Part shown: piece by piece, positions 2,995 through 8,197 of the stretch
Layout of the letters: the number at the start of each line of letters is the position of its first letter
How positions within the stretch are numbered: position 1 is the stretch's first letter
DNA from: a virus
IMG/VR virus record: IMGVR_UViG_3300042867_000579
Span: 1-20,940 of that record
DNA length: 20,940 nt
Strand: one strand, 5' to 3'
Made by a program: the position numbers and the translations under genes
The notes under the pieces: generated by a model
What the model was told of the DNA's origin: nothing
Database searches by the model: none
The model's input: only the letters and a program-made list of their open reading frames with translations

Positions 2995-3021
2995 TCCAAC
3001 CCTCACAGACGGAACCAGACC

Positions 3022-3621
3022 ATGACCATCACAGCCACAATCACAGCCACAATCACAGCCGAACTATACGCTCGCGCTATCTCTTGCGCTTCTATCGACG
3101 CGCACCGCCCTCAAATTGCTGGCGTTCGTGTAGAACCGCATAAGGATGGCGGAACCATCCTAATCGCTACAGACGGTCATTGCGCCGTTGTCATCCGCGA
3201 CCTCAAAGGCTTCGCCAGTGAGGCTTTCACGCTAGCCTTGCCCAAGTCATTGCTCAAAGAATGCAAGCCATCCAGACTTGATAAAGAGCCTACTATTTGG
3301 ATCGAGGACGGCGCGGCAAAGATTACAGGCCTAATGACACGCGATTGGCTTGTCGATATGCCGTTTCCAGACTGGCGCCGCATTGTCCCGCAAACAACGC
3401 CCGATATGGGCTGCATGGCTAGCTTTGACAATCGCGTCTTGTCGCGCCTAGCAGGTGCCTTGACGGGCGATAAGGTCCAAACGCTAGTTATCAAGGGCAC
3501 AAGCGACACAGACGCTCATATCGTGTTTGGGACGCTTAGCGACGCCTTTGGCGTTGCCATGCCAATCCGCGTTGCCAATAGCATCCCCGATAACGACTTC
3601 TCACTTCCCTCTTGGCTTTAG
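3022..3621 (+). CDS. Compact DNA sliding-clamp-like protein (DnaN-related)
   Basis: 199 residues, against about 370 for a bacterial beta clamp. Three clamp signatures appear in the right order. GVRVEPHKDGGTILIATDGH (34-53) matches the domain 1 pattern ending ATDGHR. FPDWRRIVP (115-123) matches the FPDYRRVIP entry to domain 2. FGVAMPIRV (176-184) matches the C-terminal VMPMRL strand. A clamp tethers DNA polymerase to template; here it could serve the phage family A polymerase, compete with the host clamp, or act in regulation. The N-terminus is built from a 12-base repeat (MTITATITATITAE) and probably lies outside the fold. The start is supported by the shared leader with GGAA 7-10 bases upstream. 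A GC-rich hairpin follows the stop. Homology is inferred from motifs only. Confidence 0.68.
   Translation: MTITATITATITAELYARAISCASIDAHRPQIAGVRVEPHKDGGTILIATDGHCAVVIRDLKGFASEAFTLALPKSLLKECKPSRLDKEPTIWIEDGAAKITGLMTRDWLVDMPFPDWRRIVPQTTPDMGCMASFDNRVLSRLAGALTGDKVQTLVIKGTSDTDAHIVFGTLSDAFGVAMPIRVANSIPDNDFSLPSWL
3028..3060 (+). repeat. In-frame 12-bp tandem repeat at the start of the clamp-like gene
   Basis: The unit ATCACAGCCACA occurs at 3028-3039 and 3040-3051, followed by a 9-base partial copy at 3052-3060. It encodes ITAT repeats. The unit length is a multiple of three, so copy-number changes would lengthen or shorten the N-terminus without a frameshift. Confidence 0.8.
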
Positions 3622-7434: not shown

Positions 7435-7595
7435 CCGACCAACAAGACTGGGACGCCGCCGCAGCAGAGGCCGGGTATTTGCCGACAAGTGAGTATGTCA
7501 AACGATGGGCGATGGCCCGCGAGGCAGCCCGCGAGGCTCTACAGACGGCGCAAAGCCTACACCCCTCTTTAAGACAGCCCAAGGAAGAACAATGA
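7431..7595 (+). CDS. 54-residue helical protein with RQPKEEQ tail, coupled to gcrA
   Basis: Reads MTDQQDWDAAAAEAGYLPTS, then a charged amphipathic helix (EYVKRWAMAREAAREALQTA) and SLHPSLRQPKEEQ. ATG at 7431 overlaps the upstream stop as ATGA, and its own stop (7593-7595) overlaps the gcrA start as ATGA. AREAAREALQ plus PKE resembles the ends of the genes at 6771 and 6983, so it is another member of the shared-tail set. Function unknown. It probably exists partly to deliver ribosomes to gcrA. Confidence 0.66.
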   Translation: MTDQQDWDAAAAEAGYLPTSEYVKRWAMAREAAREALQTAQSLHPSLRQPKEEQ

Positions 7596-8197
7596 GCGAT
7601 AAACCGCCCGTTTACGCATGGCCGCAGGAGGCTATCGACAACATGATCAGGCTCTACCTCAAAGGCGACAGCGCCAGCCAGATCGCCAAAGCCCTAGGCA
7701 ATGGCCTGACGCGCAACGCTGTTATTGGCAAGCTAAACCGCCTAAGAGACAAGGGGCTGCGCCCTGAGTTGAGCCTGCACGTCATTTCGGTTAAGAGGGC
7801 TAACGGCCAACAGATCAACCGCATCAATGCGGCCAAACTGGCGACGCCATACCGGCCCAAGCCGCAACCGGCCAAGGTCGTCCTGTTCAAGGCCCCGACC
7901 ATGCCCAAGCCAACGCCACCACCGCCGCCAGCAGCCGCGCCAGAGCCGACAGGCATACACGCGGCTATCCTTGCAAACCTCCGCCCACGGGGCTGCAAAT
8001 GGATCGTGGAGGACTTCCTGATCGGCCAGGGCGACGAGGCGCTCATGTGCGGCGAACTACGCTCCGGCGAATCGCCCTACTGCGAGCATCACCGCCGGAT
8101 TGGCAAAACCTCGTGGCCTGATCGAAAGGTCGAGGCCAGCAACCGAGGCTTGAGACGCCTAGGCGCATGGGCCACCAAGAACGTCTATGGATCATGA
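7592..8197 (+). CDS. gcrA: GcrA-family cell-cycle transcription regulator, phage-encoded
   Basis: 201 residues. In Caulobacter and relatives GcrA binds the sigma70 RNA polymerase holoenzyme and promoters carrying GANTC methylated by CcrM. Residues 9-55 match the GcrA N-terminal helix-turn-helix: AW (9-10), LYLKGDSASQIAKALG (21-36), then LTRNAVIGKLNRLR (39-52), very close to the family signature SASQIAxxLG-VTRNAVIGKxxRL. A Pro-rich linker (about 88-119, with PTPPPPPAAAPEP) leads to a C-terminal module GCKWIVEDF...LMCGE...SPYCEHHRRIGK (C135, C153, C164, H166, H167), like the conserved GcrA C-terminus that contacts sigma. It is last in the operon, coupled by ATGA, and followed by a strong terminator. 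The longer frame from 7505 overlaps the upstream gene and is not preferred. Both DNA-binding and sigma-binding halves appear intact, so it may redirect or mimic host GcrA. Confidence 0.88.
   Translation: MSDKPPVYAWPQEAIDNMIRLYLKGDSASQIAKALGNGLTRNAVIGKLNRLRDKGLRPELSLHVISVKRANGQQINRINAAKLATPYRPKPQPAKVVLFKAPTMPKPTPPPPPAAAPEPTGIHAAILANLRPRGCKWIVEDFLIGQGDEALMCGELRSGESPYCEHHRRIGKTSWPDRKVEASNRGLRRLGAWATKNVYGS

Follow-up and report, generated by a model that had tools for sequence, protein, structure and literature searches.

Besides the full-length beta clamp DnaN, E. coli makes a short UV-induced form, beta*, in which domains 2 and 3 are complete and which is active as a clamp. The phage protein described here is likewise a shortened clamp without the N-terminal part, but it also lacks half of domain 3. 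For DnaN itself, the part of the review PMC11139829 used here lists 18 residues of the pocket that receives clamp-binding motifs (CBMs) and names I78, R103, F106, I272, L273, E298, and E304 as dimer-interface residues. PCNA and gp45 of phage T4 are homotrimers with two motif repeats per protomer, according to the portion of PMC4858162 consulted. Our protein resembles them in having the clamp fold and in being shorter than DnaN, whereas it has 1.5 domains and is nearer to DnaN in sequence. Another phage protein acting on the clamp system is Gp168 of phage Twort, but its binding site on the host clamp is the DNA channel, and it is not described as a clamp relative in the same part of PMC11139829.

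The kinship of the present family with the clamp is already known, as phage annotators have labelled members either as the beta subunit of DNA polymerase III or as a fragment of this subunit. Bcep781 gp15, EP23 p08, TheodorHerzl bas14_0007, and Skate 041 belong to this family, match over the full length, and share the truncation. In a literature search that left most subscription journals aside, we found no earlier description of phage half clamps and no mention of the 1.5-domain plan, the split between pocket and interface, the single branch, or the mislabel. A word search of PMC8357120, which deals with clamp evolution, gave no word starting with phage or virus. The gene analyzed here, called mini-clamp in the following, lies in a window of 20,940 bases, which is a complete IMG/VR virus record and possibly a fragment.

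Results

The window gene encodes a relative of DnaN

The original prediction had seen ATDGH, FPDWRRIVP, and FGVAMPIRV in clamp order within 199 residues. The reading frame at 3022-3621 indeed carries them in the order of DnaN (Table 1; FGVAMPIRV at residues 176-184), and they occupy homologous rather than unrelated DnaN positions. In three comparisons with close relatives, dN/dS of the window gene was 0.10-0.15, so the reading frame is under purifying selection. With phmmer, residues 3-126 aligned to residues 137-263 of Thermotoga DnaN (PDB 1vpk, E 4.2e-5). The proposed search against DnaN profiles gave a match to NCBIfam TIGR00663 at E 3e-5, with 23.1 bits and thus below the cut-off of 137.65. 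Queried with the window protein by itself, Pfam gave no match at E ≤ 1; a profile of 65 relatives matched DnaN structures at 2.3e-23. The window protein is a true relative of DnaN. Within PHROGs, residues 9-186 align to positions 3-188 of the 190 of phrog_3007 (E 1.2e-14), so that the profile is matched over its full length, as expected for a member of this phage mini-clamp family. A second match is phrog_947, DNA polymerase processivity factor (1.4e-5).

Table 1 Features of the mini-clamp gene in the window
Feature	Coordinates	Strand	Remarks
Mini-clamp CDS	3022..3621	+	ATG start, 199 aa, stop included; based on homology and dN/dS
N-terminal MTITATITATITA, residues 1-13	3022..3060	+	Model partly of low confidence
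First beta-alpha-beta-beta-beta unit, predicted domain-2 equivalent, residues 9-60	3046..3201	+	DSSP on model; DnaN 121 onward
RPQIAG, residues 29-34	3106..3123	+	Equivalent of DnaN R152-YYLN-G157
ATDGH, residues 49-53	3166..3180	+	DnaN 171-175; pocket subsite I (pocket list from part of PMC11139829)
Second unit, predicted domain-2 equivalent, residues 69-106	3226..3339	+	DSSP on model
FPDWRRIVP, residues 115-123	3364..3390	+	DnaN 241-249; equivalents of pocket residues P242, R246, V247
Predicted half domain 3, one helix and three strands, residues 127-184	3400..3573	+	About DnaN 313-366
MPIR, residues 180-183	3559..3570	+	DnaN M362-R365; pocket subsites I and II
C-terminal tail with P-x-W, residues 185-199	3574..3618	+	Absent from E. 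coli DnaN

The stretch 3022-3060 contains twelve-base repeats, by which the window copy has one more four-residue unit than the relatives L016 and L017 (195 aa each). The sequence GGAACCAGACCATGACC is common to 2819-2835 and 3011-3027 of the window. The latter copy lies in the region where the mini-clamp starts, and the former in that of an in-frame ATG (2830) of the ORF at 2785. A scan for promoters and terminators upstream of the mini-clamp gave no excess over shuffled sequences.

The protein corresponds to one and a half clamp domains

Single-chain prediction with AlphaFold2 yielded the anticipated clamp fold for the window protein (pLDDT 89.6, pTM 0.87) and for the distant member L052 (pLDDT 94.6, pTM 0.89). 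Both models consist of two beta-alpha-beta units, which together make up one clamp domain, followed by a helix and three strands. On E. coli DnaN (6fvl_D), the window model superposes with Z 14.1 and an rmsd of 2.9 over 174 residues, and the L052 model with Z 16.8 and an rmsd of 2.2 over 162 residues. Both superpositions span DnaN from about 121-128 to 366 and leave 72-77 DnaN residues without a counterpart. The VIA-align matches listed (best 50 each) comprised DnaN clamps and DnaN complexes only, and the lack of two-domain clamps among these best 50 excludes nothing.

Three sequence comparisons identify the residues without a counterpart as the first half of domain 3. When built from the C-terminal part of the mini-clamps, an HMM scores 14.6 bits on DnaN 305-366 and -0.9 on 245-307. 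The last third of the family profile aligns in the same register to the ends of E. coli and Bartonella DnaN. In the member from phage Skate, PF02768 matches weakly (E 0.028) and only at its positions 71-121 of 121. As a control, E. coli DnaN matched all three Pfam clamp domains. Hence, the mini-clamp very probably consists of DnaN domain 2 joined to the C-terminal half of domain 3, as judged from sequence and models. The original prediction of a half-length clamp relative holds for the kinship and the length, whereas the protein appears to combine these parts and not two shrunken domains.

The window protein has neither the three complete domains of DnaN nor the two complete domains per subunit of PCNA and gp45, as both models have just one more unit, the third, after domain 2. 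The distance from FPDWR to MPxR is 40-79 residues across the 65 aligned rows (middle half 64-71) vs 121 in E. coli DnaN. Among 30 genome loci examined out of 55, it was 64-80 in 8, 121-133 in 17, and 164 in 1, with 4 unmeasured. The other 25 loci, all from Aeromonas, align with the part of the query that the full-length loci also match. We considered a two-domain clamp that has shrunk and forms a trimer like PCNA, but rejected it because FPDWR and MPxR are about 68 residues apart instead of the 121 in DnaN and because the region after FPDWR matches the second half of domain 3 only.

Compared with DnaN, the mini-clamp thus shares the fold of domain 2 and of the C-terminal half of domain 3 as well as the CBM pocket motifs RYYLNG, ATDGH, FPDWRR, and MPxR. 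It differs in having 199 instead of 366 residues, in lacking domain 1, the N-terminal half of domain 3, and the dimer-interface positions listed in the part of PMC11139829 used, and, for most members, in an extra tail. This tail contains P-x-W or P-x-F in 50 of the 65 rows. As a canonical CBM it was ruled out, since DFSLPSWL of the window protein lies outside the published consensus. Some other members carry basic tails rich in K, A, and P with a net charge of +6 to +17 (L018 3551-4504, L039 7992-8807, L035 8007-8756, L080 7968-8609). From their sequence, these tails look as if DNA binding by the tail had replaced encircling.

The pocket is kept and the dimer interface is lost

All 18 pocket positions listed in the part of PMC11139829 used fall inside aligned, kept segments. 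The seven dimer-interface positions named there all fall inside lost segments without a counterpart. By alignment and model, the deletion spares the CBM pocket region in its entirety and drops both halves of the ring interface, one of which is domain 1 and the other the first half of domain 3.

When the columns of the search motifs were disregarded, the mean entropy was 1.21 for the 16 testable columns of the listed pocket vs 2.58 for the 140 others, and 0 of 20,000 random column sets was as low in entropy as the pocket set. The listed pocket is the most conserved feature of the mini-clamp family, a result that is somewhat circular because the 65 rows were found via a motif or via likeness to DnaN-like columns. 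The remaining low-entropy columns are mostly sequence neighbors of pocket residues and form no clear second patch. As part of the conservation stems from common descent with DnaN, it speaks for retention and not for a new function.

Among the listed pocket residues, P242 and M362 are kept in all 65 rows, G174 and P363 in 64, R152 in 63, R246 in 62, R365 in 61, T172 in 60, and H175 in 59. Poorly kept are Y323 (36 rows), N320 (33), R176 (30), M364 (28), and V344 (0). The window copy is identical to E. coli DnaN at 10 of the 18 listed positions. It has V for Y323, D for N320, C for R176, and A for L177, and also departs from E. coli by Q for Y154 (in RPQIAG, where 64 of the 65 rows have Y). The histidine of ATDGH is missing from three named relatives, GB2A, AH2, and CECAV044, and AH2 also lacks MPxR, so the pocket is not intact everywhere. 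The position of Q149 is acidic (E or D) in 53 of the 65 rows. We dropped this as an argument against DNA binding because the DnaN of Bartonella, a normal clamp, has STEETRYYLNG in the same region.

The family is widespread and may have a single origin

One motif scan of viral contigs returned 245 relatives, and the best 80 of these 245 were retained. The alignment of 65 rows contains 64 of 70 distinct proteins and the window protein; near copies (L019, L020, L060, L086, L092) and L024, whose start is unclear, stayed outside. The typical member L052 matched 246 named phage records (E ≤ 1e-3), and in 201 of these the match covered 80% or more of L052. The matched records include phages of Escherichia, Salmonella, Klebsiella, Vibrio, Acinetobacter, Rhizobium, Caulobacter, and Burkholderia, and the recorded host of TheodorHerzl, which carries bas14_0007, is E. 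coli K-12. PADLOC gave no match for three family members.

When 73 short and 15 full-length rows were placed in one tree, in which L104, L117, L119, L128, L133, L134, L139, and L146 were not used, one branch (support 100/99) separated short from full-length clamps. Since one branch parts them, the mini-clamps may be of single origin, as far as the sequences tell. The window copy belongs to a diverged branch, apart from the members of Bcep781, EP23, TheodorHerzl, and Skate, and its closest relatives are the viral contigs L016, L017, and L003. Full-length FPDWRR clamp genes that are diverged from E. coli DnaN were seen in alphaproteobacterial genomes (L124, L128, L125, L135, L148, L099, L100). 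They are possibly extra or mobile copies of DnaN.

No clamp loader was found in the carrier records

In agreement with the original prediction that none of the visible genes encodes a clamp loader, PF13177 found no match in the window record. The same holds for all 43 carrier records searched with profiles, which comprise 37 picked for record length or name and six additional named phages; many of them may be fragments. DnaE, PolB, and a full-length DnaN above the cut-off were found in none of the 37. A family-A polymerase is present in 20 of the 43 records. PF00476, the profile of this family, matched in 17 of the 37, the phrog_17 polymerase in 19 of the 37 (two of them weakly) and in three of the six named phages. 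Counting all 13 named phage genomes, six have a confident phrog_17 polymerase and seven do not. The mini-clamp gene thus occurs both with and without a phage polymerase.

Clustering of the neighborhoods (78 loci, 1,108 ORFs) gave as its most frequent groups a terminase-like one in 23 loci and a primase-helicase one in 16, both of which also contain ORFs of the window. A functional reading of the clusters was dropped as some of them resemble antisense ORFs. A canonical CBM occurs in 0 of 25 window ORFs, where about 0.7 would be expected per pattern. No phage partner is therefore visible in this record, which may be incomplete, and a host partner is more likely. The window also encodes a homologue of the cell-cycle regulator GcrA at 7505-8197 (+; PF07750, E 4.7e-19), which suggests an alphaproteobacterial host.

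Discussion

As the pocket is kept and the ring surfaces are dropped, the simplest action of the mini-clamp would be the binding of CBMs in solution. We consider it very nearly an even chance that the protein is a ring-less clamp module reduced to the pocket, serving as a soluble decoy or adaptor for host proteins that carry CBMs. That the pocket binds CBM peptides is probable. That its main function lies in competing for or capturing host proteins, we hold with a confidence somewhat short of even. The divergence of the window copy at several pocket positions weakens the pocket-only reading.

The mini-clamp would be made early in infection and remain soluble as a monomer or small oligomer, and its pocket would capture host proteins by their CBM peptides. 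Among host proteins, the clamp-loader subunit delta and repair or replication proteins with CBMs, e.g., RecB, Pol II/IV, Hda, and MutS/L, would be the likeliest targets. Delta is reported to bind a monomeric beta mutant about 50-fold tighter than the dimer (PMC11139829, in the part used), and the RecB motif QVEMEF binds the same beta pocket (PMC13254535, in the portion consulted). Both make good candidates. Captured proteins could then be kept off the host clamp (decoy) or be delivered to a replication or recombination complex of the phage (adaptor). Tentatively, and with clearly less than even confidence, we propose that the soluble pocket acts as a competitive sponge for delta, RecBCD, and other host replication and repair proteins, that is, as a host-takeover or anti-RecBCD factor. 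Among the functions originally proposed, the decoy for host clamp partners fits best because the partner pocket is kept; the binding itself we infer. A general decoy would, however, harm phages without a polymerase, which may depend on the host replisome, and this counts against it.

It is unlikely, though worth weighing, that the main role is that of a tether which brings host proteins with CBMs (polymerase, ligase, mismatch repair, RecBCD) to phage DNA. Attachment would be via the phage replisome, SSB, or a basic tail and not by encircling DNA. The gene order points in this direction in Rb1, where the gene adjoins SSB, and in Vibrio phage XM1, where RdgC, an exonuclease, and SSB are found in the same cluster. 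In BcepC6B, the gene sits between polymerase and endonuclease. Occurrence with and without a phage polymerase would also fit a tether. However, the contexts vary, and head genes surround it in EP23, Skate, Bcep781, and CECAV044. Tails with a net charge of +5 or more are found in 6 of the 65 rows, but the other 59, including the window protein, have no strongly basic tail.

There is only a small chance that the mini-clamp is a true sliding clamp, in which four subunits of 1.5 domains would supply three motif units each and thus the 12 of a normal clamp, with half domains pairing across subunits. The arithmetic agrees with both AlphaFold2 models, the half domain is without its sheet partner and might pair, and phages with a family-A polymerase could use such a ring. 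Against this, none of the interface positions listed in the part of PMC11139829 used is kept, the conserved columns group in and beside the pocket, and no clamp loader was found in any of the 43 records. The ring with more subunits, also proposed originally, therefore finds no positive support.

Poisoning of the host clamp, via a mixed interface or via the tail in the host pocket, would have the same outcome as Twort Gp168 through another surface, and we regard it as improbable. Inhibition of a host clamp by a phage is known from Gp168 (PMC11139829, part used), and the hydrophobic P-x-W/F tail is conserved beyond the C-terminus of DnaN. Yet the tail does not fit the CBM consensus, and the enterobacterial members read end at MPxR without such a tail.

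A RusA-like Holliday junction resolvase, the label that phrog_3007 (matching 65 of 65 rows) and many records carry, can practically be dismissed because the predicted fold is that of a clamp and the record of Bcep781 gp15, whose product name is this very label, bears the note 'DNA Pol III b subunit fragment'. The label of phrog_3007 is wrong: 56 of the 65 rows match the central domain of DnaN in Pfam, no resolvase and hence no RusA family is among the three Pfam families matched, TIGR00663 is matched by 63 rows, and phrog_947 by all 65.

If the pocket-only reading is true, evolution can separate the two jobs of the clamp, which are to encircle DNA and to dock partners, and phages kept only the docking half. 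The clamp pocket is also an antibiotic target, and a natural soluble competitor would show the effect of capturing CBM proteins in vivo. The member in TheodorHerzl, a phage of E. coli K-12, allows direct testing. If the sponge proposal is true, a host-takeover or anti-RecBCD factor has long been hidden under the resolvase label, and a wrong function on many phage genes is corrected in any case. Many phage records name the product by the RusA-like label. Besides phrog_3007, phrog_12598 is labelled in the same way, and the members matching the two are clamp relatives (e.g., L008 7968-8549).
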